A stretch of DNA of 64,000 nucleotides, taken from contig CM057147.1 in assembly GCA_029964075.1 (NCBI GenBank), positions 29,471,513-29,535,512 on the forward strand, written 5' to 3'. The notes beneath the pieces are model-generated. The model was not told where the DNA came from, ran no database searches, and was given only the letters and a program-made list of their open reading frames with translations. A program made the translations under genes and the position numbers. The stretch comes from Patiria pectinifera (Eukaryota; Echinodermata; Asteroidea; Valvatida; Asterinidae). Shown here piece by piece: positions 12,361-61,817 of the stretch. Positions within the stretch are counted from its first letter, which is position 1, and each line of letters opens with the position of its first letter.

Positions 12361-12391
12361 ATTATTATAAACGTCTTTTATATTAAATAAT
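12361..12391. promoter_or_regulatory. Compact divergent promoter, integrase side
   Basis: 31 bp lie between ATG codons on opposite strands. The spacer holds GTCTTTTATATTAAA in plus orientation, matching 5755-5769. Confidence 0.5.
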
Positions 12392-15250: not shown

Positions 15251-15255
15251 CGAGT

Positions 15256-17357: not shown

Positions 17358-17470
17358 TTTATTATAGAAAATATAATATTTTTTCTCATTTTTTTTGGAA
17401 GGCAGACTTTGGATTTATAAGCAATCAGACTCACCGGCTGGTGAGGATCTTCAAGACGAGAGATAATGGG

Positions 17471-25339: not shown

Positions 25340-25997
25340 TTCGCAAACCTTACCCGGTGGCGTGTAGAAGTGAAATGGACAACATGCTTTTCACGGTGAA
25401 TTGTCGTATAGAACATGTCCTCGACTCAGATATTTTCTTTTAATTACGAAAGTGAAGGTGTCAAAACACGCTGGAAACCTGTCTCCTTTTGTGTTATTTG
25501 CAGTGTAAACTAGCCCAGTATCGATCAGTCCCATCAACAATTGCGACTCACGTTGGAAAGATTATGCCAACGAGACATCTAAGAACATGACCCAAGGACA
25601 AAATGCATCATAACACGGGCGTTGCTAGACCATTTTGAATGGAGGGGGGTCATTATGAAATTTGCCGAAAGACCGTCACGCAAAATGAGTGTAATTGATT
25701 ATATTCACCCAAAATGTTGAATGCCTGCAAGCGAGCACGTACCTGTGTTTTGCAAAGTCATATTGCTGTCAACCGCCCGTAAATGGAGCGACCTCGTGCG
25801 TCAGCTCGTGCCGACATGACAGAATGTACACAATCTTTTGCTACGGGTTGCAGAACCGGATTTTAGCTTCGGGGTTTTGAGCTGCGGTGTTCATTATTTA
25901 CATTCTCCATTATTTCTTCTTTCTTCTTCCTTTCCCCTTCCTTTGCCAAAGTTCATTTCTATTATGCAGACAGCACCATGATTTTCACGAGGTCCGT

Positions 25998-33147: not shown

Positions 33148-33944
33148 TATAGGTGTTCAAGGTTGACATAGATTTGCAATTTGCTACCAGTAATTAAGAA
33201 CCAGCTGTTCACCAGAGGTGATATCCGAGACGCTAAAAGTAAAGACATATTAAGTAACCGTTCCAGTGGCTTAGTGACTAACTCAAGTTTTATGTAAGCT
33301 CAAGTAAAACTACCTGTACCGTGAACAAAAATATACATGTATATCATCTGCCTTCAGAGCGCCCCTTCAAAAAAAACAATGTTTGCATCCCCAGGTGCCC
33401 TCAGAAGTGTAACCCTAGTTACGTCACTGTGTAGTACACGATGTTATCGCTTACATATTCATGACTTCGTATGGCGTTTTTCAGGTCCTTGCATGCCCAG
33501 GTCATCGAAGAAAGAATAGCAATATTTGCTTCGAAAACAATCTTCTCTAAATGAACGTAACGACTAGATCGAGCAGACTTGAATGGTGCAATAAGTGGTG
33601 CGTTCAGATATTATTCGGGTGCTCATAGTCATATGTAAACCTTGAAAGGTCATTGCGAGTGGGCGCCCCATTTTAACGAAGCCCTGGGTCATGCCAGGAT
33701 TAGCTCTTTACAGGTCTGTGGAAAATTCAAATTCATGGTGATAATTAAGTAATTTGAAGGTAAAAAAAGCCTAAGCACAATCAAAACAATTGAGGAGTAG
33801 TTTGTAGATGTCAGCGGTAAGCCCATTACAACTGAAAAGAAATACATAACTATTGCCTCGGTTTCAGATTCAATGTGCAGTTAACCACGCTCGGTGTTTT
33901 TTTTTTCTTTGGCAAATATTATGGGATAGAAGCATTTGTCTGGG

Positions 33945-33951
33945 TATAAAA
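33945..33951 (+). promoter_or_regulatory. TATA box of the F-type lectin gene
   Basis: TATAAAA lies about 112 bp upstream of the signal-peptide ATG at 34063, leaving room for a short 5' untranslated region. Confidence 0.55.
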
Positions 33952-34062: not shown

Positions 34063-34143
34063 ATGAGATTGTTTCACTGGGTAGCTGCTGCTATCTTTGT
34101 GCTGGGATTAGCGGGGTTCCAGATCGCCCACGCCTTGAACGGG
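34063..34143 (+). CDS. F-lectin exon 1: signal peptide
   Basis: Encodes [19 protein letters not shown] and a short end with AHA, a good signal peptidase site. Donor GGG|gtaagag, phase 0. Confidence 0.75.
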
Positions 34144-37100: not shown

Positions 37101-40100
37101 GTGTTTCATCAGTTTGCCTAAAATTGTAAGACTATATCAGTGGGCCTATTGACTATTTCCAGATGGCTGGCAGTTACTTGGTGCCCCTTTTGCACGCACA
37201 TTTTCAGCAGGCAACATATCAGTTTACGTAAATTTGTAGAGAGACCATCTGCCAACCTGGGCAGTATAAGTGCTCAAGGCATTTTTATATTACAAAGGGT
37301 CGGGTTTTTCCTTGTTCATTAATTTTCAGGAGGAGGAGTTGCAATTCCTGGTTGATCGTGCCCTGGTGGAAATAACCGAGGATAAGAAGTCCGAAGGTAC
37401 GCGCACATATCAAATCAAGAAACAAGGATTTCTATATACATGTGTTGACGACCATTATGTCCGTTTGGTCGATTACGTCCGACAACAGATTTTGATGAGC
37501 GACGACCCAATGTGTCCGACGGCCGATTATGTCCGACCCATTATGTCCGACGGCGATTATGTCCGACCCATTATGTCCAACGTCCGATTATGTCCGACCC
37601 ATTGTGTCCAACCGCCGATTATGTCCGACCCATTGTGTCCGACGTCCGATTATGTCCGACCCATTGTGTCCGATGTCCGATTATGTCCGACCCATTGTAT
37701 CCGACGGCCGATTAAGTCCGACCCATTATGTCCGACGGCCGATTATGTCCGACCCATTATGTCCGACGGCGACTATGTCCGATCCATTGTGTCCGACGGT
37801 CGATTATGTCCGACCCATTATGTCCGACTGCCGATTATGTCCGACCCATTGTGTTCGACGGCCGATCGAGGATTTTGTTCAATTTGCATGTAGGTCTACA
37901 TTGCTGATAATGTGGAAGGCAAATCATATCTTTACCACTTAGTGTGATAAAGCGGCCGTATTTAGAATCATTCACTCATAAAAGTAAGATTGGATTTGAA
38001 CAGAATTGGATACAAGAGAGGCTGATTTTTCCTAACCAATTTTGGACGGTTACCTCTAAAAGTTTGTTGTCATATTATTTTGGCGTCCTATGAAATCTGA
38101 TTTATTTTATCCTCTAATTTAATTACTCTCATTACTCTCACAGGTGACTTTTTAATGTCCTAATTATGGTTTGCCCTTTATGAAGGAATCTCTTCATAGA
38201 GTGCAATTTCTACACTTATCGGAATCAGGACTCTGCAAATGGTTATAAAGGGCGGTGAGTAAAAGTGAAAAAAATGAATTCCAGTGAAGCACCGCTCGAA
38301 AGAGGGCGCTTTGTTTCGTTTAAACGGAGGGGCACAATTTTCAAAATGCGAGGCCTAAAATTCGAGATCTTTGGAAGATAAGTGTATAATAAAAAAAAAA
38401 AAGTCACGTATTGTAAGGTTGTGTGTTTACATTTTTTTTTAAATGGATGTGACCTTATATCAGGAGTGTGGTTTCGTTTTGGAATAGACATAGATGAAGA
38501 GATAACTATAGTGGCGAAAATGTGTAGGTAGACGTTGACCTTTGGGCTAATTGTGCCCTTCTGGTAGCCAATTCGGGGCAACGTTATGACCCAAAACTAA
38601 CCAACACAGTCCCACTAAAAATATTAAAGCCACTGACGACTTTGGGTATTCTGAATATTGATAACAGTAGTAACTGTATTTTGAATATTGATAGCAGTAA
38701 TAATTCAACGCAATCGACACAATTTTAATTAAATCGGCTTTTTAATCTTTGCCAGTAATTTTCAAGAGTAAATATACAAATCATCCACTATCAATATCAT
38801 TATCAACATCGCCATCGCTGTATAATATACCGGTTTGATATTTTTACACACAATATAAATCAAGCGATTAACAAAAGGTATACGGTTTAACAGAAAAACC
38901 GATACAAATGTTCCGTTGACGCTGGCAGAGGAAAATCAAAGAAAAAACTATGAATTTGACAATAACAACCACAACAGCATTACTTATTTCTTTAGATACT
39001 TCTTACTGTTAAATCAAATTCAATGCAAATCATAACTGTGGTTTTATGTATGACCCATCTCCTTTCACTGATATTAGTTTCATTAATGAACAATACTTAA
39101 TAAACCAGATTGCCCCACAGTACCTAGAAATTGTTGTATAGACGGTTACAAGAAATAGTGATAACAAGGGCGATGATGCTGTTGATGACGATGAAGTAAA
39201 CAAAGAATCTCGCCAACTACAGTAAGTATTAAACAAAATATTTTAACTAAATAATAAGTTTTAACTACACAACAAGAACTACATCATAATTATGTAAATA
39301 ACAACAAGAACTACATCATAATTATGTAAATAACAAGAGTTTGAAGTATTAAAATGAAACTTAAAAACTTGAAAACACTTTAATATTAAGATGGGAACAG
39401 TGATGGAATTGTTTATTTGATGACAAAAGCAGCGAATCTAGCACACAGTCAGCGTTTGTCTTGAGAAATATATTTGGCTACAGGGCCATTGCAGATTTGT
39501 CCTTTAAAAAATATATAGGTATAATAACAAGCAATGTCAGCCATTTTGAAAAGTTACAAATTACAAATCTGCGATGGCCCGAAAGCGAAATATCTGCAGT
39601 TACAATCCAAAGACAATTTAATAATGTCAGCACACAACCGAATGAATCCGGCGTAATCGACCACGTACATACAATAAGCTCGGACGTATCCCGTCGTCGG
39701 ACACAAAGGGTAGGACATAATCGGCCGTCGGACATAATGGGTCGGGAATAATCGGCCGTCGGACAATGGGTCCTGATTCCGATAAGTGTTGCAATTGCAC
39801 TCAGTGAGGAAATTGCACTCTATGAAGAGATTCCTTCATAGAGTGCACAACATAATTAAGACATTAAAAGTCACTGGAGAGTAACTAGAGCGTAAAATAG
39901 AGGATGAAATAAATCAGATTTTATAGGACTCCAAAAATATTATGACAACAAACTTTCAGATTTTACCTTACAAAATTGCTTAAGGAAAATCGGCTTCCTG
40001 GTATCCAATTCTGTTCAAATCCAATCTTACTTTTATAAGTGAATGTTTCTAAATACGGCCGAATTGTCACACTAAGTGGTAAAGATAAAATTTGCCTGCC

Positions 40101-43100
40101 ACATTATCAGCAATGTAGACCTACATGCAAATTGAACACAATCCTCGATGGGCCGTCGGACACAATGGGTCGGACATAAACGGCCGTCGGACATAATCGG
40201 CAGTCTGACATAATAAGTCAGACATAATCGGTCGTCGGACACAATGGGTCGGACATAGTCGCCGTCAGACATAATGGGTCGGACATAATGGGCCGTCATG
40301 GGGTGCGACAAGGTTTTATGGGGGGGGGGGGACTAGAAAATAATTTCAAAAAAAGGGTTAGTAGACTTAGTTTCTGAATATTTTGTGTAAAGATTTCTCA
40401 TCCAGCTTGACTAATTCAACATTCTTGTTTGTCAGATTGAAAGCTTGTGACCATATCTATAAGTATAATAGAGCCAGCTGCAGTAGGGTGTTTTTGTTGG
40501 ATTTTAATTGTTGGATTCTTACTTGTCTTCCAAACAGTTTCCCAAGTGTTCAGTATCGTTGGTAAGCCGGCTTTACAAAGCACATCCCATAGCAGTGGAA
40601 AGTTTCCAGCATCAAACGCAGTGGACGGCAGTCTGTCATCAGATGTCGCGTATTGTTCGCACACGGGTAAGATAATCAACTTCGTTAGTGGGAACAGTTG
40701 GGATGGGGCCGGCTGGACACTGCGAATGGGACTGGAAAACATCTGACCACGGGTGGCGCTATTCATGTATTAGGCGTTACTCCTTCCCTTCAAGTAACGC
40801 TAATTGTTTTCCTGCTTGACTTATTTTGGGCTAACTTACTAATTAACGTTTGTGTGAGTTTTGAAGTTACCAAACCCCAAATCATGTCGAAACATATCTC
40901 AAGGTGGCCTACGCAATCACATCTGTTAAGAAAATAGAAGTACATTCATTGTTGATTTTGTGCAGGACTCAAGTTTGTCTACTGAAAAAAAGTTAAGTCA
41001 CGTTCCATATTGCGCATGCGTGGAACATGTAACTTGACATGATTAAATTTCCAAATGATTTGAGATGTATTGATAAGGTCTAGATCGGATCTCGTTTGGT
41101 TTCCTTTCTTTACATTTTGTTTTACTAATGTTTGTTGCTTAGTTGGTGATAGTTCGAATCCATGGTGGAGAGTCGATCTTGGAGAAGACCACTGCATCAG
41201 CAAAGTCCGAATTCTGAACCGTGGAGACTGCTGCAGTAAGTATAACGTACGAGAGTCCAAAACTAATAGAAGGCTATAGTTATGAAAACATCAGGGAATA
41301 TTGCATCAAAAAGACCAACTGATTGTTTGCATTTCCATGTGCAGGCGAACGTCTGGAAGGCGCTGTTGTGCGTGCTGGTGAAAGCCCCCATGTCACCATC
41401 AACCCGACTTGTGGTTCACCTGTCACCGCTGCCCAAGCCCAACCACGTGGTGGTATCATCGAGTTTGATTGCTCTCCGGCGTTGAGGGCGCGATACGTCA
41501 GCGTAAATATCCCTGGTACAGGCACCTTGCAACTTTGTGAGGTGACGGTAGAGGAATTCCCCTTTGATCAATGCGTGGGTAAGTTTCAAGATTAAAAGTC
41601 TCAACATCTTGTTTTTAAGACTGGAAAGGTATCAAGAGTGTAACTTTAATTCCTGGTTGATCGTGCCCTAATGGAAATAACCGAGGATAAGAACTCCGCA
41701 GGTACACACATTGTATCCAATCAAGAAACAAGGAATTCTATATACATGACAAAAAATTGCAATTTGTTAACGATAAAATTTGGATTCAATGACGCTATAC
41801 TTTGGAACCCAGGATGTTTCCAACATACTGATTACCTATGGTTGTTTACTTGTGGTGGGGCAAAATATAAAAAAATGTCAAAGAGATGTGAGTTGTCTTA
41901 GTTTCTGAAGATGTTGTGTACAGTTTTCTCATCCAGCTTGACTAATTCAACATTCTTGTTTGTCAGATTGAAAGCTTGTGACCATAACTATAAGTATAAA
42001 AAAGCCAGCTGCAGTAGGATGTTTTTATTGGAGAATTTTAATTGTTGGATTCTTACTTGTCTTCCAGTTTCCGAAGCGTTGAGTATCGTTGGTAAGCCGG
42101 CTTTACAAAGCACATCCCATAGCAGTGGAAAGTTTCCATAACTATAAGTATAAACAAGCCAGCTGCAGTAGGGTGTTTTTATTGGAGAATTTTAATTGTT
42201 GGATTCTTACTTGTCTTCCAAACAGTTTCCGAAGCGTTGAGTATCGTTGGTAAGCCGGCTTTACAAAGCACATCCCATAGCAGTGGAAAGTTTCCAGCAT
42301 CAAACGCAGTGGACGGCAGTCTGTCATCAGATGTCGCGTATTGTTCGCACACGGGTAAGATAATCAACTTCGTTAGTGGGAAAAGTTTGGGTGGGGCCAG
42401 GCTGGACACTGCGAATGGGACTAGAAAACGTCTGACCAGGGGTGGCGCTTTTCGTGTATTGGGCGTTACCCCTCCCCATCCAGTAACGCTAATTGTTTTC
42501 CTGCTTGACTTATTTTGGCCTAACTTACTAATTAACGTTTGTGTGAGTTTTGAAGTTACGTAATCCCAAATCAGGTCGAAACATATCTCGAGGTGGCCTA
42601 CGCCATCACATCTGTTAGGAAAAAATAAGTACAATACATTGTCGATTTTGTGCAGGACTCAAGTTTTTCTACTGATAAAGTAAAGTCACGTTCCATTTTG
42701 CGCATGGGTGAAAAATATCACGTGACATATTTAAATTTACAAATGATTTGAGATGTATTGATAAGGTCTAGATCGAATCTCGTTTGGTTTCCTTTCTTTA
42801 AATTTTGTTTTACTAATGTTTTGCTTAGTTGGTGATAGTTCGAATCCATGGTGGAGAGTCGATCTTGGAGAAGACCACTGCATCAGCAAAGTCCGAATTC
42901 TGAACCGTGGAGACTGCTGCAGTAAGTATAACGTACGAGAGTCCAAAAATAATAGAAGGCTATAGTTATGAAAACATCAGGGAATATTGCATCAAAATGG
43001 CCAACTGATTTTTTGAGTTTCCATGTGCAGGCGAACGTCTGGAAGGCGCTGTTGTGCGTGCTGGTGACAGCCCCCATGTCACCATCAACCCGACTTGTGG

Positions 43101-46100
43101 TTCACCTGTCACCGCTGCCCAAGCCCAACCACGTGGTGGTATCATCGAGTTTGATTGCTCTCCGGCGTTGAGGGTGCGATACGTCAGCGTAAATATCCAT
43201 GGTACGGGCACCTTGCAACTTTGTGAGGTGACGGTAGAGGAATTCCCCTTTGATCAATGCGAGGGTAAGTTTCAAGATTAAAAGTCTCAACATCTTGTTT
43301 TTAAGATTGGAAAGGTAGCAAGCGTGTAACTTTAATTCTTGGTTGATCGTGCCCTGATGGAAATGACCGAGGATAAGAACTCCGAACTCCACCTTATGAA
43401 AACATTCCATTTTATGAAACTCCGAAGGTACGCACATTATATCCAATCAAGAAACAAGGAATTCTATATACATGACAAAATTGCCATAGTTTTAAGATAA
43501 CGTTTGGATTTCAATGACGCTATTTTTTTAGAGCACGTTATGCTCTCAACATAATTATTACATATGGTTGCTTAGTTGTTGTGGGGCAAACTCGAGAATA
43601 ATTTCAAAAAGATGTTAATAGACACTTAGTTTCTGTAGATGTTGTGTAAATATTTCTCATCCAGCTTGACTAATTCAACATTCTTGTTTCTCAGATAAAA
43701 AGCTGGTGACCATAACTAAAAGTATAATAAAGCCAGCTGCAGTAGGCTGATTTTGCTGGAGAATTTTAATTGTTTTTGACTCCGAAGGTACACACATTAT
43801 ATCCAATCAAGAAACAAGGAATTATATATACATGACAACAAATTGCAATTTGTTAACGATGAAATTTGGATTCAATGACGCTATACTTTGGAGCCCAGGA
43901 TGTTCGCAACATACTGATCACCTAACGTGTCTTCCAAACAGTTTCCCAAGCGTTCAGTATCGTTGGTAAGCCGGCTTTACAAAGCACATCCCATAGCAGT
44001 GGAAAGTTTCCAGCATCAAACGCAGTGGACGGCAGTCTGTCATCACATGTCGCGTATTGTTCGCATACGGGTAAGATAATCAACTCCGTTAGTCGGAAAA
44101 GTTGGGGTGGGGCCAGGCTGGTCACTGCGAATGGGACTAGAAAACGTCTGACCACGGGTGGCGCTATTCATGTATTGGGCGTTACCCCTTCCCCTCCAGT
44201 AACGCTAATTGTTTTCCTGCTTGACTTATTTTGGGCTAACTTACTAATTAACGTTTGTGTGAGTTTTGAAGTTACCAAACCCCAAATCATGTCGAAACAT
44301 ATCTCGAGGTGGCCTACGCAATCACATCTGTTAGGAAAATAGAAGTACATTCATTGTTGATTTTGTGCAGGACTCAAGATTGTCTACTGAAAAAGTAAAG
44401 TCACGTTGCATATTGCACATGCGTGAAACATATCACGTGACATAATTACATTTACAAATGATTTGAGATGTATTTATTAGGTCTAGATCGAATCTCGTTT
44501 GGTTTCCTTTCTTTAGATTTTTTTTTTAATAATGTTTGTTGCTTAGTTGGTGATAGTTCGAATCCATGGTGGAGAGTCGATCTTGGAGAAGACCACTGCA
44601 TCAGCAAAGTCCGAATTCTGAACCGTGGAGACTGCTGCAGTAAGTATAACAGAATCGAAAAAATAATAGAAGGCTATAGTTATGAAAACATCAGGGAATA
44701 TTGCAACAAAATGGCCAACTGATTGTTTGAATTTCCATGTGCAGGCGAACGTCTGGAAGGCGCTGTTGTGCGTGCTGGTGACAGCCCCCATGTCACCATC
44801 AACCCGACTTGTGGTTCACCTGTCACCGCTGCGCAAGCCCAACCACGAGGTGGTATCATCGAGTTTGATTGCTCTCCGGCGTTGAGGGCGCGATACGTCA
44901 GCGTAAATATCCATGGTACAGGCACCTTGCAACTTTGTGAGGTGACGGTGGAGGAATTCCCCTTTGATCAATGCGAGGGTAAGTTTCTTGTTAAAAGTCT
45001 CAACATCTTGTTTTTAAGATTGGAAAGGTAGCAAGCGTGTTACTTTAATTCTTGGTTGATCCTGCCCTGATGGAAGTTACCGAGGATAAGAACTCCGAAC
45101 TCCACCTCATGCAAACATTCCATTTTATGAAACTCCGAAAGTACGCACATATATATCCAATCAAGAAACAAGGAATTCCATATACATGACAAAATTGCCA
45201 TAGTTTTAAGATAACGTTTGGATTTCAATGACGCTATTTTTTTGGAGCCCGGTATGCTCTCAGCATAATGATTACCTATGGTTGGCTTACTTATTGTGGG
45301 GCAAACTCGAAAATAATTTCAAAAAGATGTTAGAAGACTTAATTAGTTTCTGAAGATGTTGAGTAAATATTTCTCATCCAGCTTGGCTAATTCAACATTC
45401 TTGTTTGTCAGATAAAAGGCTTTGACCATAACTAAAAGTATAATAAAGCCAGCTGCAGTAGGGTGATTTTGTTGGAGAATTTTAATTGTTTTTGACTCCG
45501 AAGGTACACACATTATATCCAATCAAGAAACAAGGAATTATATATACATGACAACAAATTGCAATTTGTTAACGATAAAAATTGGATTCAATGACGCTAT
45601 ACTTTGGAGCCCAGGATGTTGTCAACATAATGATCACCTAACTTGTCTTCCAAACAGTTTCCCAAGCGTTCAGTATCGTTGGTAAGCCGGCTTTACAAAG
45701 CACATCCCATAGCAGTGGAAAGTTTCCAGCATCAAACGCAGTGGACGGCAGTCTGTCATCAGATGTCGCGTATTGTTCGCACACGGGTAAGATAATCAAC
45801 TCCGTTAGTTGGAAAAGTTGGGGTGGGGCCAGGCTGGACACTGCGAATGGGACTAGAAAACATCTGACCAGGGGTGGCGCTATTCATGTATTAGGCATTA
45901 CCCCTCCCCCTCCAGTAACGCTAATTGTTTTCCTGCTTGACTTATTTTGGGCTAACTTACTAAGTAACGTTTGTGTGAGTTTTGAAGTTACCAAACCGGA
46001 AATCAGGTCGAAACATATCTCGAGGTGGCCTACGCAATCACATCTGTTAGGAAAATAGAAGTACATTCATTGTTGATTTTGTGCAGGACTCAAGTTTGTC

Positions 46101-49100: not shown

Positions 49101-52100
49101 AGTATCGTTGGTAAGCCGGCTTTACAAAGCACATCCCATAGCAGTGGAAAGTTTCCAGCATCAAACGCAGTGGACGGCAGTCTGTCATCAGATGTCGCGT
49201 ATTGTTCGCACACGGGTAAGATAATCAACTCCGTTAGTTCTAAAAGTTGGGGTGGGGCCAGGCTGGACACTGCGAATGGGACTAGAAAACATCTGACCAG
49301 GGGTGGCGCTATTCATGTATTAGGCGATACCCCTCCCCCTCCAGTAACGCTAATTGTTTTCCTGCTTGACTTTATATTTTGTGCTAACTTACTAATTAAC
49401 GTTTGTGTGTGTTTTGAAGTTACCTAACCCCAAATCAGGTCGAAACATATCTCGAGGTGGCCTACGCAATCACATCTGTTAGGAAAAAGAAGTACAATTC
49501 ATTGTTGATTTTGTGCAGGACTCAAGTTTCTCTACTGAAAAAGTAAAGTCACGTTCCATATTGCGCATGCGTGAAACCTATCACGTGACATTATTGAATT
49601 TCCAAATGATTTGAGATGTATTTATAAGGTCTAGAGCGAATCTCGTTTGGTTTCCTTTCTTTAGATTTTTTTTTTACTAATGTTTGTTGCTTAGTTGGTG
49701 ATAGTTCGAATCCATGGTGGAGAGTCGATCTTGGAGAAGACCACTGCATCAGCAAAGTCCGAATTCTGAACCGTGGAGACTGCTGCAGTAAGTATAACGT
49801 ACGAGAGTCCAAAACTAATAGAAGGCTATAGTTATGAAAACATCAGGGAATATTGCATCAAAATGACCAATTGATTGTTTGCATTTCCATGTGCAGGCGA
49901 ACGTCTGGAAGGCGCTGTTGTGCGTGCTGGTGACAGCCCCCATGTCACCATCAACCCGACTTGTGGTTCACCTGTCACCGCTGCGCAAGCCCAACCACGA
50001 GGTGGTATCATCGAGTTTGATTGCTCTCCGGCGTTGAAGGCGCGATACGTCAGCGTAAATATCCATGGTACAGGCACCTTGCAACTTTGTGAGGTGACGG
50101 TGGAGGAATTCCCCTTTGATCAATGCGAGGGTAAGTTTCAAGATTAAAAGTCTCAACATCTTGTTTTTAAGATTGGAAAGGTAGCAAGCGTGTTACTTTA
50201 ATTCTTGGTTGATCCTGCCCTGATGGAAGTTACCGAGGATAAGAACTCCGAACTCCACCTCATGCAAACATTCCATTTTATGAAACTCCGAAAGTACGCA
50301 CATATATATCCAATCAAGAAACAAGGAATTCCATATACATGACAAACTTGCCACTGTTTTAAGATATTGTTTGGATTTCAATGACGCTATTTCTTAGGAG
50401 CCCGGTATGCTCTCAACACAATGATTACATATGGTTGCTTACTTGTGGTGGGGCAAACTCGAAAATAATTTCAAAAAAGATGTTAGTAGTCTTAGTTTCT
50501 GTAGATGTTGTGTAAAGATTTTTCATCCAGCTTGACTAATTCAACATTCTTGTTCGTCAGATTGAAAGCTTGTGACCATAACTATAAGTATAATAAAGCC
50601 AGCTGCAGTAGGGTGTTTTTATTGGAGAATTTTAATTGTTTTTGACTCCGAAGGTACACACATTATATCCAATCAAGAAACAAGGAATTATATATACATG
50701 ACAACAAATTGCAATTTGTTAACAATACAATTTGGATTCAATGACGCTATACTTTGGAGCCCAGGATGTTGTCAACATAATGATCACCTAACTTGTCTTC
50801 CAAACAGTTTCCCAAGCGTTGAGTATCGTTGGTAAGCCGGCTTTACAAAGCACATCCCATAGCAGTGGAAAGTTTCCAGCATCAAACGCAGTGGACGGCA
50901 GTCTGTCATCAGATGTCGCGTATTGTTCGCACACGGGTAAGATAATCAACTCCGTTAGTCGGAAATGTTGGGGGGGGGGGCCGGCTGGACACTGCGAATG
51001 AGACTGGAAAACATCTGACCAGTGGTGGCGCTATTCGTGTATTGGGCGTTACCCCTCCCCCTCCAGTAACGTTAATTGTGTTCCTGCTTGACTTATTTTG
51101 GGCTAACTTACTAATTAACGTTTGTGTGAGTTTTGAAGTTACCAACCCCCAAATCATGTCGAAACATATCTCGAGTTGGCCTACGCAATCACATCTGTTA
51201 GGAAAATAGAAATGCATTCATTGTTGATTTTGTGCAGGACTCAAGTTTGTCTACTGAAAAAGTTAAGTCACGTTCCATATTGCGCATGCGTGAAACATAT
51301 AACTTGACATAATTACATTTCCAAATGATTTGAGATGTATTGATCAGGTCTAAATCGAATCTCGTTTGGTTTCCTTTCTTTACATTTTTTTTTACTAATG
51401 TTTGTTGCTTAGTTGGTGATAGTTCGAATCCATGGTGGAGAGTCGATCTTGGAGCAGACCACTGCATTAGCAAAGTCCGAATTCTGAACCGTGGAGACTG
51501 CTGCAGTAAGTATAACGGGAGTCCAAAATTAATAAAAGGCTATAGTAATGAAAACATCAGGGAATATTGCACCAAAATAACTGATTGTTTGAATTTGCAT
51601 GTGCAGGCGAACGTCTGGAAGGCGCTGTTGTGCGTGCTGGTGACAGCCCCCATGTCACCATCAACCCGACTTGTGGTTCACCTGTCACCGCTGCCCAAGC
51701 CCAACCACGTGGTGGTATCATCGAGTTTGATTGCTCTCCGGCGTTGAGGGCGCGATACGTCAGCGTAAATATCCATGGTACAGGCACCTTGCAACTTTGT
51801 GAGGTGACGGTGGAGGAATTTCCCTTTGATCAATGCGAGGGTAAGTTTCAAGATTAAAAGTCTCAACATCTTGTTTTTAAGATTGGAAAGGTAGCAAGCG
51901 TGTTACTTTAATTCTTGGTTGATCCTGCCCTGATGGAAATTACCGAGGATAAGAACTCCGAACTCCACCTCATGCAAACATTCCATTTTATGAAACTCCG
52001 AAAGTACGCACATATATATCCAATCAAGAAACAAGGAATTCCATATACATGACAAAATTGCCATAGTTTTAAGATAACGTTTGGATTTCAATGACGCTAT

Positions 52101-55100
52101 TTTTTTTTGGAGCCCGGTATGCTCTCAACATAATTATTACAAATGGTTGCTTAGTTGTTGTGGGGCAAACTCGAAAATAATTTCAAAAAGATGTTTATAG
52201 ACTTAGTTTCTGTAGATGTTGTGTAAATATTTCTCATCCAGCTTGGCTAATTCAACATTCTTGTTTGTCAGATAAAAAGCTTGTGACCATAACTAAAAGT
52301 ATAATAAAGGCAACTGCAGTAGGGTGATTTTGTTGGAGAATTTTAATTGTTTTTGACTCCGAAGGTACACACATTATATCCAATCAAGAAACAAGGAATT
52401 ATATATGCATGACAACACATTGCAATTTGTTAACGATAAAATTTGGATTCAATGACGCTATACTTTGGAGCCCAGGATGTTGTCAACATCATTATCACCT
52501 AACTTGTCTTCCAAACAGTTTCCCAAGCGTTCAGTATCGTTGGTAAGCCGGCTTTACAAAGCACATCCCATAGCAGTGGAAAGTTTCCTGCATCAAACGC
52601 AGTGGACGGCAGTCTGTCATCAGATGTCGCGTATTGTTCGCACACGGGTAAGATAATCAACTTCGTTAGTCGGAAAAGTTGGGGTGGGGCCAGGCTGGAC
52701 ACTGCGAATGGGACTAGAAAACGTCTGACCACGGGTGGCGCTATTCATTTATTAGGCGTTACCCCTCCCCCTCCAGTAACGCTAATTGTTTTCCTGCTTG
52801 ACTTATTTTGGGCTAACTTACTAAGTAACGTTTGTGTGAGTTTTGAAGTTACCAAACCGGAAATCAGGTCGAAACATATCTCGAGGTGGCCTACGCAATC
52901 ACATCTGTTAGGAAAATAGAAGTACATTTCATTGTTGATTTTGTGCAGGACTCAAGTTTTTCTACTGAAAAAGTTAAGTCACGTTCCATATTGCGCATGC
53001 GTGAAACATATAACTTGACATAATTAAATTTCCAAATGATTTGAGCTGTATTCAAAATGTCTAGATCGATTCTCGTTTGGTTTCCTTTCTTTACATTTTT
53101 TTTTACTAATGTTTGTTGCTTAGTTGGTGATAGTTCGAATCCCTGGTGGAGAGTCGATCTTGGAGAAGACCACTGCATCAGCAAAGTCCGAATTCTGAAC
53201 CGTGGAGACTGCTGCAGTAAGTATAACGGAATCGAAAAATAATAGAAGGCTATAGTTATGAAAACATCAGGGAGTATTGCAACAAAATGGCTGATTGTTT
53301 GAATTTCCATGTGCAGGCGAACGTCTGGAAGGCGCTGTTGTGCGTGCTGGTGACAGCTCCCATGTCACCATCAACCCGACTTGTGGTTCACCTGTCACCG
53401 CTGCCCAAGCCCAACCACGTGGTGGTATCATCGAGTTTGATTGCTCTCCGGCGTTGAGGGCGCGATACGTCAGCGTAAATATTCATGGTACAGGCACCTT
53501 GCAACTTTGTGAGGTGACGGTGGAGGAATTCCCCTTTGATCAATGCGAGGGTAAGTTTCATGTTAAAAGTCTCAACATCTTGTTTTTAAGATTTGGAAAG
53601 GGAGCGAGCGTTTAACTTTAATTCCTGGTTGATCGTGCTCTGATGGAAATAACCGAGGATAAGAACTCCGACTCCATCTCATGAAAAAAAATCCATTTTG
53701 TGAAACTCCGAAGGTACGCACATATATATCCAATCAAGAAACAAGGAATGCTATATATACTTGACAAAATTGCCATGGTTTGAAGATAACGATTGGATTC
53801 CATTGACACTATTTTTTTGGAGCACAGGATGTTCTCAACATAATGATTACCTATTGTTGTTTACTTGTGGTGGGGCAAACTCGAAAATAATTTCAAAAAA
53901 GACGTTGGTGGACTTAGTTTCTGAAGATGTGTGTAAAGATTTCTCATCCAGCTTGACTAATTCAACATTCTTGTTCCTCAGATTGAAAGCTTGTGACCAT
54001 AACTATAAGAATAATAAAGCCAGGTGCAGTAGGGTGTTTTTATTGGAGAATTTTAATTGTTGTATTTTCACTTGTCTTCCAAACAGTTTCCCAAGCGTTC
54101 AGTATCGTTGGTAAGCCGTCTTTACAAAGCACATCCCATAGCAGTGGAAAGTTTCCAGCATCAAACGCAGTGGACGGCAGTCTGTCATCAGATGTCGCGT
54201 ATTGTTCGCACACGGGTAAGATAATCAACTTCGTTAGTTCTAAAAGTTGGTGTGGGGCCAGGCTGGACACTGCGAATGGGACTAGAAAACATCTGACCAG
54301 GGGTGGCGCCATTCGTGTATTGGGCGTTACCCCATCCCCCTCAAGGATCTCTAATTGTTTTCCTGCTTGACTTATTTTGGGCTAACTTACTAATTAACGA
54401 TTGTGTGAATTTTGAAGTTACCAAACCCAAAATCAGGTTGAAAAAATATCTAGTGGTGGCCTACGCAATCACATCTGTTAGGGAAATAGCCGTACATTTC
54501 ATTGTTGATTTTGTCCAGGACTCAAGTTTTTCTACTGAAAAATTCAAAGTCAAGTTCCATATTGCGAATGCGTGAAACATGTAACGTGACATAATTGAAT
54601 TTACGAATGATTTGAAATGAATACATAAGGTCTAGAATGAATCTCGTTTGGTTTCCTTTCTTTAGTTTTTTTTTTAATAATGTTTGTTGCTTAGTTGGTG
54701 ATAGTTCGAATCCATGGTGGAGAGTCGATCTTGGAGAAGACCACTGCATCAGCAAAGTCCGAATTCTGAACCGTGGAGACTGCTGCAGTAAGTATAACAG
54801 AATCCAAAAAATAGAAGAACGCTATGGTTATGAAAACATCAGAGAATATTGCACCAAAATAACTGATTGTTTGAATTAACACGTGCAGGCGAACGTCTGG
54901 AAGGAGCTGTTGTGCGCGCTGGTAACAGTCCCCATGCCACCATCAACCCGACTTGTGGTTCACCTGTCACCGCTGCCCAAGCCCAACCACGTGGTGGTAT
55001 CATCGAGTTTGATTGCTCTCCGGCGTTGAGGGCGCGATACGTCAGCGTAAATATCCCTGGTACGGGCACCTTGCAACTTTGTGAGGTGACGGTGGAGGAA

Positions 55101-58100
55101 TTTCCCTTTGATCAATGCGTGGGTAAGTTTCAAGATTAAAAGTCTCAACATCTTGTTTTTAAGATTGGAAAGGTAGCAAGCGTGTAATTTTAATTCTTGG
55201 TTGATCGTGCCCTGATGGAAATAACCGAGGATAAGAACTCCGAAGGTACACACATATACATCCAATCAAGAAACAAGGAATTCTATAGGTACATGACAAA
55301 AATTGCCATTTTTAAAGATAACGTTTGGTTTTTAATGACACTATTTGTTTTGGAGCCCGGTATGCTCTCAACATAATGATTACCTATGGTTGTTTACTTG
55401 TGGTGGGGCAAACTCGAAACTAATCTCAAAAAGATGTTAATAGTCTTAGTTTCTGTAGATGTTGTGAAAAGATTTCTCATCCAGCTTGACTAATTCAACA
55501 TTCTTGTGTGTCAGATTGAAAGCTTTTGACCATAACTATCAGTATAATAAAGCCAGCTGCAGTAGGGTGTTTTGTTGGAGAATTTTAATTGTTGGATTCT
55601 TACTTGTCTTTCAAACAGTTTCCCAAGCGTTGAGTATCGTTGGTAAGCCGGCTTTACAAAGCACATCCCATAGCAGTGGAAAGTTTCCAGCATCAAACGC
55701 AGTGGACGGCAGTCTGTCATCAGATGTCGCGTATTGTTCACACACGGGTAAGATAATCAACTTCGTTAGTCGGACAAGTTGGGGTGGGGCCGGCTGGACA
55801 CTGCGAATGGGACTGGAAAACATCTGACCAGGGGTGGCGCTATTCATGTATTGGGCGTTACCCCATCCCCCTCCAGGATCTCTAATTGTTTTCCTGCTTG
55901 ACTTATTTTTTGAATTAACTTACTAATTAACGATTGTGTGAATTTTGAAGTTACCAAACCCAAAATCAGGTTGAAAAAATATCTAGTGGTGGCCTACGCA
56001 ATCACATCTGTTAGGGAAATAGCCGTACATTTCATTGTTGATTTTGTCCAGGACTCAAGCTTTTCTACTGAAAAATTCAAAGTCAAGTTCCATATTGCGA
56101 ATGCGTGAAACATGTAACGTGACATAATTGAATTTACAAATGATTTGAAATGAATACATAAGGTCTAGATTGAATCTCGTTTGGTTTCCTTTCTTTTAAT
56201 TTTTTTATTTACTAATGTTTGTTGCTTAGTTGGTGATAGTTCAAATCCCTGGTGGAGAGTCGATCTTGGAGCAGACCACTGCATCAGCAAAGTCCGAATT
56301 CTGAACCGTGGAGACTGTTGCAGTAAGTATAACAGAATCCAAAAAATAAAAGAACGCTATGGTTATGAAAACATCAGAGAATATTGCACCAAAATAACTG
56401 ATTGTTTGAATTAACACGTGCAGGCGAACGTCTGGAAGGCGCTGTTGTGCGCGCTGGTGACAGCCCCCATGCCACCATCAACCCGACTTGTGGTTCACCT
56501 GTCACCGCTGCCCAAGCCCAACCACGTGGTGGTACCATCGAGTTTGATTGCTCTCCGGCGTTGAGGGCGCGATACGTCAGCGTAAATATCCCTGGTACAG
56601 GCACCTTGCAACTTTGTGAGGTGACGGTGGAGGAATTCCCCTTTGATCAATGCGAGGGTAAGTTTCTTGTTAAAAGTTTCAACATCTTTTTTTTTTAGAT
56701 TGGAAAGGTAGCAAGCGTGTAACTTTAATTCCTGGTTGATCGTGCCCTGATGGAAATAACCGAGGATAAGAACTCCGATCTCCATCTTATGAAAAAAATC
56801 CATTTTATGAAACTCCGAAGGTACGCAAATATATATCCAATCAAGACACAAGGAATTCTATATACCTGTACACGACAAACTTGCCACTGTTTTAAGATAT
56901 CGTTTGGATTTCAATGACGCTTTTTCTTTGCAGCCCGGTATGCTCTCAGCATAATGATTACCTATAATTGCTTACTTGCGGTGGGGCAAGCTAGAAAAAA
57001 ATGTTAAAGAGATGTTAGTAGTCTTAGTTTCTGAAGATGTTGTGTAAAGATTTCTCATCCAGCTTGACTAATTCAACATTCTTGTTTGTCAGCTTGAAAG
57101 CTTGTGGCCATAACTATAAGTATAAAAAAGCCAGCTGCAATAGGGTGTTTTATTGGAGAATTTTAATTGTTGGAATCTTACTTGTCTTCCAAACAGTTTC
57201 CCAAGCGTTCAGTATCGTTGGTAAGCCGGCTTTACAAAGCACATCCCATAGCAGTGGAAAGTTTCCAGCAACAAACGCAGTGGACGGCAGTCTGTCATCA
57301 GATGTCGCGTATTGTTCGCACACGGGTAAGTTAATCAACTTCGTTTGTCGGAAAAGTTGGGGGTGGGGGTGAGTGGGTGTGTTGGACAGTGCCTATGGGA
57401 GGGGAAAACATCTGACCACGGGTGGCGCTATTCATGTACTGGGCGTTACCCCTCCCCATCCAGGAACTCTAATTGTTTTCCTGCGTGACTTATTTTTGGA
57501 CTAACTTACTAATTAACGATTGTGTGAATTTTGAAGTTACCAAACCCCAAATCAGGTTGAAAAATATCTAGTGGTGGCCTACGCAATCACATCTGTTAGG
57601 GAAATAGCCGTTCATTTCATCGTTGATTTTGTCCAGGACTCAGGTTTGTTTACTGAAAAATGTAAAGTCACGTTCCATATTAGACATGCGTGAAACATGT
57701 AACGTGACATAAATGAATTTACAAATGATTTGGAATGAATACATAAGGTCTAGATTGAATCTCGTTTGGTTTCCTTCTTTAGATTTTCCTTACTAATGTT
57801 TATTACTTAGTTGGTGATAGTTCGAATCCCTGGTGGAGAGTCGATCTTGGAGAAGACCACTGCATCAGCAAAGTCCGAATTCTGAACCGTGGAGACTGCT
57901 GCAGTAAGTATAACAGAATCCAAAAAATAAAAGAACGCTGTAGTTATGAAAATATCAGAGAATATTGCACCAAAATAACTGATTGTTTGAATGTCCATGT
58001 GCAGGCGAACGTCTGGAAGGCGCTGTTGTGCGTGCTGGTGGCAGCCCCCATGTCACCATCAACCCGACTTGTGGTTCACCTGTCACCGCTGCCCAAGCCC

Positions 58101-61100
58101 AACCACGTGGTGGTATCATCGAGTTTGATTGCTCTCCGGCGTTGAGGGCGCGATACGTCAGCGTAAATATCCCTGGTACGGGCACCTTGCAACTTTGTGA
58201 GGTGACGGTGGAGGAATTCCCCTTTGATCAATGCGAGGGTAAGTTACATGTTAAAAGTCTCAACATCTTGTTTTTAAGATTGGACAGGTAGCAAGCGTGT
58301 AACTTTAATTTTTGGTTGATCGTGACCTGAACGAATTAGCCGAGGATAAGAACTCCTAAGGTACACACATTGTATCTGATCAAGAAACAAGGAATTCTAT
58401 ATACATGACAAAAAAAAGGCAATTTGTTAACGATAAAATTTGCGTTCAATGGGGCTATACTTTGGAACCCAAGATGTTCTCAAAATAATGATCACCTATG
58501 GTTGTTTACTTGTGGTCGGACAAACTAGAAAAAATTGTGAAAGAGATGTTAGTAGTCTTAGTTTCTAAAGATGTTGTGTAAAGATTTCTCATCCAGCTTG
58601 ACTAATTCAACATTCTTGTTTGTCAGATTGAAAGCTTGTGACCATAATTATAAGTATAATAAAGCCAGCTGCAGTAGAGTGTTTTTGTTGGATTTTAATT
58701 ATTGGATTCTTACTTGTCTTCCAAACAGTTTCCCAAGCGTTCAGTATCGTTGGTAAGCCGGCTGTACAAAGCACATCTCATTGCAGCGGAAACTTTCCAG
58801 CAACAAACGCAGTGGACGGCAGTCTGTCATCAGATGTCGCGTATTGTTCACACACGGGTAAGATAATCAACTTAGTTAGTCGGAAAAGGTTTTTTTTGGG
58901 TGGGGGGTGAGGAAGGGGGTGGTAGACATTGCGAATCGGACGATTAAACATCTGACCAGGGATGGCGCCATCATGTATTGGGCATAACCCCTCTCCCTTT
59001 AGTGACGATAAATGTTTTCCTTCTTGACTTATTTTGGGCTAACTCACTAATTAACGTTTGTGTGAGGTTTGAAGTTACCAAACCCCAAATCAGGTCGAAA
59101 CATATCTAGAGGGGTAGAGGTGGCCAACGCAATCACATCTGTTAGAAAAATAGAAGTACAATTCAATGCTGATTTTGTCTATGAATCAATTTTTTCTACT
59201 GAAAAAAGTAAAGTCACGTTCCATATTGTGCATGCGTTAAGCATATCAGGTGACATAAGTAAATTTAGAAATGATTTGAGATGATTTTATAAGGTCTAGA
59301 TTGAATCTCGTTTGTTTTCCTTACTTTAGATTTTTTTTACTGATGTTTGTTGCTTAGTTGGTGGTAGTTCGAATCCCTGGTGGAGAGTCGATCTTGGAGA
59401 AGACCACTGCATCAGCAAAGTCCGAATTCTGAACCGTGGAGACTGCTGCAGTGAGTATAACGGAATCCAAAAATAAAAGAAGGCTATAGTTATGAAAACA
59501 TCAGGGAATATTGCACCAAAATGGCCAACTGATTGTTTGAACTTCCATGTGCAGGCGAACGTCTGGAAGGCGCTGTTGTGCGTGCTGGTGACAGCCCCCA
59601 TGTCACCATCAACCCGACTTGTGGTTCACCTGTCACCGCTGCCCAAGCCCAACCACGTGGTGGTATCATCGAGTTTGATTGCTCTCCGGCGTTGAGGGCG
59701 CGATACGTCAGCGTAAATATCCCTGGTACGGGTACCTTGCAACTTTGTGAGGTGACGGTAGAGGAATTCCCCTTTGATCAATGCGTGGGTAAGTTTCAAG
59801 ATTAAAAGTCGCAACATCTTGTTTTTACGCCTAGCAAGGTAACGAGCCTGCAAATTCCTGGTTGAAAATTCCGTGCCCTGATGAAAATAATCAAGGATAA
59901 CAACTCCGAAGGTTCACTTATAATATCCAATCAAGAAAGAAGGAATTCCATAGGTTAAACATGACAAACTTGCCATTTTGTAAAGATACAATTTTAATTT
60001 CCATGTTGCTATTTCTTTGGAGCCCAGGATGTTCACAACATAATGATCGATCACCCATGGCTGTTTACTTGTGATGGGGCAAACTAGAAAATAATTTCAA
60101 AAAAGATGTTAGTACTCAGGCTAGTTTCTGTAGATGTTGTGTGAAGATTTCTCATTCAGCTTGAATAATTCAACATTCTTGTTTGTCAGATTGAACGTTT
60201 GTGACGATAACTATAAGTATAATAAAGCGAGCTGCAGTATAGGGTGTTTTGGTTGGAGAATTCTAATTGTTGGATTCTCTACTCGTCTTCCAAACAGTTT
60301 CCCAAGCGTTCAGTATCGTTGTCAGATTGAAAAGCTTGTGACCTTAATAAAGACAGCTGCAGTAGGATTTTAGATGGATAATTCTAATTGTTGGATTCTT
60401 ACCTCTATAAATGTCTTCCAAACAGTTTCCCAAGCGTTCAGTATCGTTGGTAAGCCGGCTTTACAAAGCACATCCCATAGCAGTGGAAAGTTTCCAGCCA
60501 CAAACGCAGTGGACGGCAGTTTGTCTTCAGATGTCGCGTTTTGTTCGCACACGGGTATGATATCCCTTTTTTTTATTAGGGCTTGATACCCGGCGAATCC
60601 ACGATGTGTGAAATGATGTTAAAAGATGATTTTTAAAAGTATCTTTAATCATTGAACATTCTGTAAATTCTTCTGAGTTTTTAAATCGGACGAGATCCGC
60701 TCTAGAACAAACAAACAAACAAACAAACCAAAATAGGAGGAAAAACTGAAGGACATCGGGAGTGGCAGTCACCTACTCTTACCATTTTCTTGATTTTGTA
60801 ATATGAACGAAAGCTGAGAAAAATCATTTTATTTTCAGGCTGATGCATGAATATCAGCGATGATACTTTGAGGAGCACTATTGAGCCTATGAAGCAGATA
60901 GCTTTGGGTGTTAATATTGAATGTTTCTTGATACATTCACATGTCTGAAAATGGACATCTCACCCAACGACTCGAAGCTAAATTAATATTTGGTGGAGGC
61001 AGAATTGAGAAATAACGTCGTCCATTTCCCCCCTTGAATCAGTTGCCGATACTAGAAACCCATGGTGGAGAGTCGATCTTGAAGAAGAGCAATGCGTTAC

Positions 61101-61513
61101 CAAGGTAACCATCCTGAACCGTGGAGACTGTTGCAGTAAGTATTTCAGAATGTACATTATGATCCTTTAGCTGGTTCCAATTTCTTCTCTTTTGAATAAG
61201 AAATCGGTTCACCTATATATAAAAGAAAAGGCTATGGCCTAACGCAATGATGCTTATTCTGTACGTCATTGTATTTAAAGGTGAACGACTGTTCTACGCC
61301 AGGGTTCGTGCTGGGCTGAGCGGGACCGTCACACAGAACCCGGCATGCGGGGCACCAGTTACTATCAGTCAAGCCCAACCATTGGGAGGGATCGTCGAGA
61401 TTGACTGCAACCGACCGTTGAGGGCGCGCTACGTGAGCGTCGATATTCCGGGTACTGCTACTCTTCAACTTTGTGAGGTCTACGTTGATGTGTTGTCCTC
61501 CGGAGGTTGCTAA
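34063..61513 (+). CDS. Giant secreted lectin with 13 tandem F-type lectin domains
   Basis: One continuous gene model fits all splice phases. Exon 1 (34063-34143, 27 codons, signal peptide) ends in phase 0. Exon 2 (37330-37396) starts in phase 0 and ends in phase 1. Then 13 modules follow, each of exon A (129 bp), B (93 bp) and C (234 bp), all with phase 1 borders; the last C ends in TAA at 61511-61513. No stop or start interrupts the array. Each module is one F-type lectin (fucolectin) domain of ~152 residues. It has GKPALQSTS, a CSHT histidine, NPWWRVDLG, then RGDCCSER, the fucose-binding H...RxDx4R signature, and LCEV near the end. Predicted length is ~2,025 residues. Undetected exons in the 3.2 kb first intron remain possible, and the array could be cut into several transcripts. 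Fucose-rich glycan binding in immunity or gamete recognition is inferred from the family. Confidence 0.8.
34144..37329 (+). other. First intron of the F-type lectin gene
   Basis: The intron is AT-rich. It contains a family of TTTTCACGAAGGGGCGAATTT motifs (35800-36290) and two similar blocks rich in TGACGTCA (35340-35530 and 36600-36830). I see no further exon. Confidence 0.5.
35330..36850. repeat. Dispersed repeat blocks with TGACGTCA and CACGAAGGGGCGAA motifs
   Basis: Two copies of a block (TACCAAGTTYRAAC, AATCNRACTTACAGTT, CTAGATATA, then GATGACGTCA..ATGACGTCA) lie about 1.3 kb apart. Between them CGTTTTCACGAAGGGGCGAA occurs at least six times, with one inverted copy near 36495. This looks like a decayed composite transposon; the class is unknown. 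Confidence 0.6.
37330..37396 (+). CDS. F-lectin exon 2: short acidic linker
   Basis: Acceptor ttttcag|GAG, donor GAA G|gtacgc. Encodes [20 protein letters not shown] and two more residues, a charged helix-like spacer between the signal peptide and the first lectin domain. Its phase change (0 to 1) is exactly what joins exon 1 to the phase 1 array. Decayed copies sit after every module. Confidence 0.7.
37441..40325. mobile_element. Foldback element in F-lectin intron 2
   Basis: Left arm 37496-38232 and right arm 39770-40305 are inverted copies. Each arm has an outer array of ~31 bp units (GTCCGACCCATTRTGTCCGA; 11 copies on the left, fewer on the right) and ~365 bp of unique inverted sequence. 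A further array piece lies at 39655-39775. The centre (38232-39655) has no supported gene. The intron sequence common to all modules stops at ~37440 and resumes at ~40325, so the whole 2.9 kb is an insertion. Confidence 0.85.
37519..37868 (+). repeat. 31 bp tandem repeat, 11 copies
   Basis: Units of GATTATGTCCGACCCATTRT plus GTCCGACGGCC with point changes. It forms the tip of the foldback arm. Confidence 0.95.
40538..41578 (+). CDS. F-type lectin module 1
   Basis: Exons 40538-40666, 41143-41235 and 41345-41578. First residues VSQVFSIV; loop RAGESPH, where most modules have RAGDSPH; strand NIPGTG; end DQCV. The binding signature RGDCCSER is complete across the B/C splice. Confidence 0.85.
41650..41701 (+). 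pseudogene. Relic of exon 2 after module 1
   Basis: TTCCTGGTTGATCGTGCCCT and the following bases match exon 2 and its donor (gtacac), including ~45 bp of intron 2. The acceptor and first codons (GAGGAGGAG) are gone and a TAA precedes the match, so it cannot be spliced in. Similar relics follow modules 2 to 12 (from ~43333, 45051, 46766, 48480, 50200, 51910, 53626, 55193, 56729, 58309 and 59853). Confidence 0.85.
42068..42137 (+). pseudogene. Truncated exon A before module 2
   Basis: Has an intact acceptor (cttccag) and the first 70 bp of exon A, then breaks at AGTTTCC into repeated intron sequence. There is no donor, so it must be skipped. Confidence 0.9.
42226..43264 (+). CDS. F-type lectin module 2
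   Basis: Exons 42226-42354, 42829-42921, 43031-43264. Begins [17 protein letters not shown] (Val for Ala); NIHGTG; end DQCE. Binding residues kept. Confidence 0.85.
43942..44978 (+). CDS. F-type lectin module 3
   Basis: Exons 43942-44070, 44547-44639, 44745-44978. Exon A reads [12 protein letters not shown], with His for the usual Asp before VAYC. NIHGTG, end DQCE. Introns are nearly identical to those of module 4. Confidence 0.85.
45658..46693 (+). CDS. F-type lectin module 4
   Basis: Exons 45658-45786, 46262-46354, 46460-46693. The exon C acceptor is tgtag rather than tgcag. NIPGTG, end DQCE. Confidence 0.85.
47375..48408 (+). CDS. F-type lectin module 5
   Basis: Exons 47375-47503, 47981-48073, 48175-48408. 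[22 protein letters not shown] (Met for Val). The B-C intron is shared almost exactly with module 7, and a silent change in exon A (tttcctgca) with module 8. Confidence 0.85.
49087..50130 (+). CDS. F-type lectin module 6
   Basis: Exons 49087-49215, 49695-49787, 49897-50130. [17 protein letters not shown] (Lys for Arg); NIHGTG; end DQCE. Confidence 0.85.
50808..51840 (+). CDS. F-type lectin module 7
   Basis: Exons 50808-50936, 51413-51505, 51607-51840. DLGADHC in exon B where most have DLGEDHC. NIHGTG, end DQCE. A G-run interrupts the A-B intron near 50970. Confidence 0.85.
52519..53550 (+). CDS. F-type lectin module 8
   Basis: Exons 52519-52647, 53124-53216, 53317-53550. RAGDSSH (Ser for Pro); NIHGTG; end DQCE. 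It is the last of the ~1.7 kb units. Confidence 0.85.
54087..55122 (+). CDS. F-type lectin module 9
   Basis: Exons 54087-54215, 54695-54787, 54889-55122. [27 protein letters not shown]; end DQCV. First of the ~1.55 kb units, which lack the second exon-2-like intron block. Confidence 0.85.
55619..56657 (+). CDS. F-type lectin module 10
   Basis: Exons 55619-55747, 56230-56322, 56424-56657. [28 protein letters not shown] (Thr for Ile); NIPGTG; end DQCE. Confidence 0.85.
57197..58238 (+). CDS. F-type lectin module 11
   Basis: Exons 57197-57325, 57811-57903, 58005-58238. [24 protein letters not shown]; end DQCE. The exon B acceptor tail is ttacttag instead of ttgcttag. Confidence 0.85.
58729..59788 (+). 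CDS. F-type lectin module 12
   Basis: Exons 58729-58857, 59358-59450, 59555-59788. [19 protein letters not shown], with an extra cysteine; VGGSSNPWW in exon B; donor gtgagt after exon B; NIPGTG; end DQCV. Confidence 0.85.
60298..60321 (+). pseudogene. Truncated exon A before module 13
   Basis: Intact acceptor (ccaaacag) and 24 bp of exon A (to ATCGTTG), then a jump back into upstream intron sequence (TCAGATTGAAAAGC). Not usable as an exon. Confidence 0.9.
60426..61513 (+). CDS. F-type lectin module 13 (terminal, diverged)
   Basis: Exons 60426-60554 (donor gtatga), 61043-61135 and 61281-61513 with the stop. Exon A is like the others (DVAFCSHT), but exon B ([28 protein letters not shown]) and exon C ([48 protein letters not shown]) are clearly diverged. 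The intervening introns are unrelated to those of other modules. The binding signature RGDCCSER is kept. Confidence 0.85.
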
Positions 61514-61811
61514 GCATCTTCTCGGCCGGTACCTCCCTTTGAATCAGGAACAGATTTGACGATGTCCATCTTTGAATTAACTAGACCATTTAACAATGGT
61601 ATTCGTATACAGTTATGGTGAATGGTTTTTTTTGTTATTAATTCTGGGAAAATAATGTAAACCCGAAATGTTGCTCTTAATATCATACACAGGAACATTT
61701 TTTATATTGTTCAATATGCTGCACTTGACCACACCTCGGAAAAGCAACCCCCCATTAAAAAAGAAGACGAAAGGCGCAAAAGAAAAACGAAAAAAGAGGG
61801 GAAAAGTAAGT

Positions 61812-61817
61812 AATAAA
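61812..61817 (+). terminator. Poly(A) signal of the F-type lectin gene
   Basis: AATAAA lies 299 bp after the stop codon, in an AT-rich tail. It is the first canonical signal downstream. Confidence 0.6.

Follow-up and report, generated by a model that had tools for sequence, protein, structure and literature searches.

The window, by which we mean the whole 64,000-nt stretch of Patiria pectinifera DNA that was analysed (C19:29471513-29535512), was taken from the one assembly examined (613.5 Mb) and contains no N. Its plus strand carries thirteen F-type lectin domain (FTLD) modules between 40538 and 61513, each divided into exons A, B and C (129+93+234 nt; Table 1). When the three exons of one module were used as a blastn query, each exon type was recovered 13 times on the plus strand, the last B and C being matched in part, and an independent whole-genome Pfam search placed the B exons of all thirteen modules above the PF22633 cut-off. 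Further upstream, at 3338-17479, lies a candidate mobile element which we take to be Polinton/Maverick-like, its label and extent being set by reading of the sequence; Pfam matches within it are to an integrase core (12371-13390, plus strand), an A32-like packaging ATPase (10044-10652, minus strand) and, below cut-off, DNA polymerase B (14303-15304, minus strand). Two related open frames on the minus strand (21966-22340 and 24995-25390), each of which matches part of a C-type lectin domain above cut-off, are found 9-12 kb upstream of the F-type lectin gene.

Table 1. Features of the predicted lectin gene and its flanks (positions in the window)
Feature	Span	Exons or detail	Strand	Basis
Promoter block	33914..33951	TATA box TATAAAA at 33945	+	aligned with eight two-domain paralogues
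Exon 1 (ATG, putative signal peptide)	34063..34143	ends in phase 0	+	related exon 5' of FTLD exons in 8 of 9 paralogues
Exon 2, linker (22 residues)	37330..37396	67 nt, phase 0 to 1	+	open frame, splice sites, paralogue match
Transposon-like insert in intron 2	37443..40331	2.9 kb	.	long inverted repeats 37734-38216 and 39803-40297, 86% identical
Module 1	40538..41578	40538-40666, 41143-41235, 41345-41578	+	blastn, translation
Module 2	42226..43264	42226-42354, 42829-42921, 43031-43264	+	blastn, translation
Module 3	43942..44978	43942-44070, 44547-44639, 44745-44978	+	blastn, translation
Module 4	45658..46693	45658-45786, 46262-46354, 46460-46693	+	blastn, translation
Module 5	47375..48408	47375-47503, 47981-48073, 48175-48408	+	blastn, translation
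Module 6	49087..50130	49087-49215, 49695-49787, 49897-50130	+	blastn, translation
Module 7	50808..51840	50808-50936, 51413-51505, 51607-51840	+	blastn, translation
Module 8	52519..53550	52519-52647, 53124-53216, 53317-53550	+	blastn, translation
Module 9	54087..55122	54087-54215, 54695-54787, 54889-55122	+	blastn, translation
Module 10	55619..56657	55619-55747, 56230-56322, 56424-56657	+	blastn, translation
Module 11	57197..58238	57197-57325, 57811-57903, 58005-58238	+	blastn, translation
Module 12	58729..59788	58729-58857, 59358-59450, 59555-59788	+	blastn, translation
Module 13 (domain-2 type in exons B and C)	60426..61513	60426-60554, 61043-61135, 61281-61513 with stop TAA	+	blastn, translation, tree
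5'-truncated linker-exon copy, intron after module 1	41648..41748		+	blastn homology from 37343 (linker nt 14)
Other 11 truncated linker copies		start near 43334, 45047, 46763, 48478, 50200, 51910, 53620, 55192, 56727, 58307, 59853	+	blastn
Partial extra exon A copies	42068-42138 and 60298-60321		.	blastn
Probable 3' UTR	61514..61817	to AATAAA at 61812	+	3' flank aligned with P1, P2

The first-pass annotation had proposed that 41 exons at 34063-61513 form one gene of about 2,000 residues, in which a signal exon ending in phase 0 and a linker exon running from phase 0 to phase 1 join an array of 13 x (129+93+234 bp) with phase-1 borders throughout; this reading is supported, and its coordinates are exact. 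It did not extend to the two partial exon A copies, the insert in intron 2, the broken linker copy in each inter-module intron, the two domain types or the way in which the array arose. Translated in phase 1, all 39 module exons stay open up to the TAA at 61511-61513, and the array has an AG acceptor at 39 of 39 sites and a GT donor at 38 of 38. Exon length is fixed at 129 nt in the 13 A exons, 93 nt in the 13 B exons and 234 nt in 12 C exons, the last C (233 nt) including the one stop of the gene; each of the 12 internal C exons ends in a splice donor and lacks a stop. The signal, linker and 39 module exons join in frame to give 6,075 nt and 2,024 amino acids with a single terminal stop, and the predicted chain from residue 25 onward has a mass of about 211.5 kDa. 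Besides the open modules, the GT-AG introns and the continuous frame, paralogues and the promoter region described below support the one-gene model. Exon 1, which by reading of the sequence is a putative signal exon, occurs a single time in the window. Scored with a frequency weight matrix at an arbitrary threshold of 3 for both splice sites, the linker was the sole open 0-to-1 exon of 16-400 nt in 34,200-40,500; many acceptors of the array fall below this threshold. The linker segment also belongs to an intronic repeat, and its predicted status as an exon rests on its open frame, its splice sites and its counterparts in paralogues P1 and P2.

Each module is recognizable as a member of the F-type lectin family. 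The closest solved relatives of module 2 by phmmer are FBP32 (3cqo, E 4.7e-39) and the eel lectin (1k12, E 3.6e-20), and PF22633 and PF00754 both exceed their cut-offs in modules 1, 2 and 13, the three that were scanned whole. The His-Arg-Arg fucose triad is intact in all thirteen domains, the cation motif (h2DGx) is present as AVDGS in every one of them, and so is the adjacent cysteine pair. The first triad spacing is H-X27-R here and 26 in the eel lectin; the motif printed in a review (PMC5712786) gives a basic triad His...Arg-X-Asp-X4-Arg/Lys with an H-X24 spacing. Eight cysteines occupy constant places in all thirteen modules, module 12 having one extra. Cysteine 61 faces Ile or Thr in FBP32 and the eel lectin and cysteine 151 lies beyond the aligned part; these two may pair with each other. 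By homology, the modules are predicted to adopt the F-type jellyroll fold and each domain to bind fucose. Since every domain retains the fucose-binding residues, the repetition of near-identical sites would probably make the product a highly multivalent fucose-binding lectin whose strength comes from avidity, suited for example to the agglutination of microbes or to a role in mucus or an egg coat. We also considered the linker as an amphipathic helix, and rejected it; the hydrophobic moment did not exceed that of shuffled sequences (fractions 0.50 in the window, 0.38 in P1 and 0.51 in L034), and we therefore make no claim of oligomerisation by the linker.

Relatives of the gene elsewhere in the genome were sought with module DNA as the query. 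Of the 75 matches listed, two fall at the window's linker and the others elsewhere, the array itself being unlisted; the long matches in this list were at most 86% identical and short exon pieces reached 98%. By our reading, the matches form places with one or two FTLD units, of which the counts given here are lower bounds. Twenty stretches were fetched, and from nine of them at least nine two-domain paralogues (P1-P9) were read, P1 spanning L019 and L020, the latter of which also holds P2. All nine have the order signal, A-B-C, A-B-C-stop, as in the window gene, and exon lengths close to its own (A 129-138, B 90-93, first C 228-234); the signal exon was found in eight, and P9 starts 1.25 kb from a contig end. 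The linker exon was found in two of the nine (P1 and P2, 77% identical), linker-like peptides occur in the degenerate loci L034 and L038 (62% identical), and a peptide pattern search of P3-P9 returned none. Where no linker exon was found, the phases of signal exon and first A exon in the predicted paralogue fail to join. Among the other stretches, one A-B-C set was read in each of six (L030, L031, L032, L033, L035, L036), and five more are incomplete or degenerate (L026, L029, L034, L037, L038). In the single-domain paralogue L035 (C766), the C exon match at 5398-5616 ends frame-shifted with a stop, and this is perhaps a broken copy. Several near-identical two-domain lectin genes lie on C415 (L023, L024, L025, L026), C14 (L027) and C73 (L028), some of these being small contigs, and would represent either recent gene duplications or unmerged haplotypes. 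The viral contigs gave one pattern match and no relative.

The 5' flank is shared with these paralogues. The window gene and P1-P8 can be aligned over the 180 nt preceding the ATG, and a TATAAA string lies at -118 in the former and between -97 and -130 in seven of the eight paralogues. With the 200 nt 5' of the ATG as the query, no copy was found within 34063-61513 at E 0.01. The gene also contains five internal TATAAAA strings and many AATAAA strings, so that internal starts or premature polyadenylation could occur. These strings, together with the existence of two-domain genes that lie near each other, such as P1 and P2 some 13 kb apart on C8, could speak for an array composed of independent or partly inactive lectin genes. 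The internal units, however, have no promoter region, no copy of exon 1 and no stop, their linker copies are truncated, their C exons end in a donor, and pN/pS among the modules is 0.29; we rejected a cluster of separate genes on the lack of these parts and consider it most improbable. One gene fits better than a cluster because exon 1 occurs once, the promoter region is uncopied, internal C exons carry a donor, the linkers between modules are truncated and the paralogues have the same exon order. Its secretion and its expression as a single transcript are predicted from this model.

A second alternative accepts one transcription unit and supposes that its main products are shorter isoforms, of one to thirteen domains, made by module skipping. 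Every border in the array is phase 1, so any skip would retain the frame, and splicing sets the number of domains in oyster bindin according to the review (PMC5712786). The skipping of single exons would, on the other hand, break a domain, and the site scores of corresponding exons are mostly alike across the modules, with lower acceptors at A3, A13, C9, C10 and C13. We regard shorter isoforms as the main product as somewhat unlikely, and the full-length chain as the better reading.

The paralogues also give an indication of how the array arose. A tree of B and C exons contains one split with 100/100 support, which separates modules 1-12 and domain 1 of the paralogues (21 rows) from module 13 and domain 2 (10 rows). 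Modules 1-12 are monophyletic (100/100), and module 13 clusters (97/94) with the second domains of P1 and P2. The exon A of all thirteen modules, by contrast with this split, forms one clade (100/99, in a tree whose bootstrap is unsettled), and module 13 is therefore probably mixed, with an array-type exon A exchanged with the array. For P1, P2 and the window gene, the A exons of both domains cluster together (84/77, not strong support), which the B and C exons do not do, a hint that single exons have been exchanged between domains. On the strength of the split between domain types, the two-domain paralogues with the same exon order and the common promoter region, the gene probably descends from a two-domain lectin by twelvefold multiplication of its first domain.

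The introns between the modules point to how this multiplication may have begun. In all 12 of them, blastn homology to the linker starts at linker nt 14 and continues through the linker-to-A intron; two of the copies were recovered independently by the genome search, each with two TAA stops. Upstream of linker nt 14, gapped alignment finds weak scattered similarity in most introns and blastn finds none, so that the break is placed less precisely than the blastn result makes it look. None of the nine paralogues has a linker match in its intron between C1 and A2, a count in which the seven other than P1 and P2 weigh less, as only these two have a known linker. The shared break points to one founding duplication that was broken inside the linker and left frame-neutral modules. 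We propose that an ancestral gene composed of signal, linker, domain 1 and domain 2 underwent a tandem duplication that joined a point 64-69 nt past the C exon of domain 1 to linker nt 14. Because the copied linker would have lost its acceptor, the C exon, which ends in phase 1, would splice to the next A exon, which starts in phase 1, and recombination between units would then have brought this frame-neutral unit to twelve copies. The dS of exon C among modules 1-12 (0.061) is about a fifth of that to domain 1 of P1 (0.295), and on this measure the amplification, or its last homogenisation, would be younger than the split from P1.

The insert in intron 2 lies just upstream of the first module. 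It is absent from the array introns, and where it sits intron 2 lacks about 100 nt that those introns have. The intron matching intron 2 is about 555 nt long in P2 and 5.3 kb in P1. The inverted repeats of the insert contain 31-nt tandem units, and by its look it resembles a foldback-type transposon.

Modules 1-12 are nearly identical, and the pattern of their differences speaks for coding function. Indels are absent from the exons in 66 of 66 module pairs, and the three introns have 4.47, 1.17 and 7.76 indel events per pair. The variants against the consensus comprise 20 synonymous, 22 replacement and 0 stop changes, with fewer replacements than the neutral expectation (binomial P = 0.011); the absence of stop codons alone is not significant (P = 0.22). 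Comparison of these modules with module 13 gives a dS of 0.65-0.75, a dN of 0.19-0.21 and a ratio of 0.26-0.32. By these measures the exons are under purifying selection. In modules 3-8, fourfold sites differ by 0.031 (76 sites only) and introns by 0.053-0.078, a difference which, on so few sites, may or may not reflect homogenisation of the exons alone by gene conversion. It has been proposed for oyster bindin that the repeat serves diversification, the modules binding different sugars and diverging under positive selection, and that precedent (PMC5712786), along with recurrent exchanges between modules here (H/P at position 131, D/E/G/N at 87), could be read in the same way. Yet pN/pS is low overall, and the triad and the eight cysteines are invariant in all thirteen domains; diversification is accordingly an improbable account of this array, and conserved, repeated sites remain our reading.

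The introns of the array carry a record of exchange between units. Identity in the A-B intron is 91-97% among modules 1-8, 92-97% among modules 3-8 and 96% between modules 9 and 10, and is lower (81-91%) for modules 11 and 12. The drop is one-sided, in that modules 11 and 12 fall and module 1 does not, and this gradient differs from the fall at both ends that simple unequal crossing over would leave. In the B-C intron, modules 5 and 7 are 100% and modules 1 and 6 98% identical, so that some near-identical pairs are separated by other modules, a sign of exchange among the units that fits gene conversion or unequal crossing over. The same likeness raises the question of whether thirteen is an assembly error and the animal has fewer or more modules. 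A 21-kb array of near-identical units is prone to miscounting, and the similarity of the A-B introns of modules 3-8 is difficult for short-read or noisy assemblies. This is nonetheless unlikely, as the window is without N, indels and many intron positions distinguish the units, and the genome search with the module listed no long match above 86% elsewhere, a weak test for a second copy given that the array itself was unlisted.

Taken jointly, the best explanation of these observations is one 41-exon gene that encodes a secreted chain of thirteen FTLDs, expanded from a two-domain ancestor and acting as a multivalent fucose lectin, to which we assign a probability of roughly 0.8. We advance more tentatively the possibility that the number of domains is set by a frame-neutral array that grows and shrinks freely, individuals differing in the length of the protein and in its avidity. 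If so, selection would act on the length of the chain rather than on the variety of its binding sites, and the founding break would have hidden every later addition or loss of a module from the reading frame. Whether domain number varies among individuals is open to genotyping. The locus also records its own growth, in the linker copies with the same truncated start in twelve introns and in the two-domain paralogues that keep the earlier form, and the origin of a long repeat protein by the expansion of an exon array can be read here directly.

The contrast with shorter F-type lectins drawn in the first-pass annotation agrees with the available part of the review, which names one to five tandem domains. 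That text counts from one to five FTLDs in oyster bindin and two or four in most teleost lectins, and gives a Xenopus chimera five together with a pentraxin domain (PMC5712786); thirteen exceeds all of these. In the titles and opening lines of abstracts that were searched, no FTLD protein exceeded five tandem domains; longer unpublished predictions may exist among automated protein records. Striped bass MsaFBP32 (PDB 3cqo) belongs to the same family by sequence and likewise has an N-type and a C-type FTLD in one chain, but two domains rather than thirteen. The nine paralogues share with the window gene the exon order and, in eight of nine cases each, the signal exon and the promoter region; they differ in having two domains and in their C1-A2 introns free of the linker match. 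The Xenopus pentraxin-FTLD chimeras and the four-domain teleost lectins resemble the gene as lineage-specific tandem duplications of the FTLD, yet have at most five FTLDs by that account, and the Xenopus chimera carries a pentraxin domain where no other domain is seen here. A further parallel may be drawn with the bindin of the oyster Crassostrea gigas, in which FTLDs also stand in tandem in one gene, recombination through introns has been proposed and a mobile-element-like insert, there a retroposon, lies 5' of the first repeat. The GA/CT microsatellites that flank the oyster repeats were not among the 12 tandem-repeat rows obtained for 30000-64000 at a score of 50. Oyster bindins are sperm proteins of one to five domains with a diversified binding pocket (PMC5712786), whereas the twelve modules here are homogeneous, under purifying selection and invariant in the triad, so that the pocket is not diversified. 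On sequence grounds, the thirteen-domain gene is thus an extreme form of a known family and not a new kind of system.
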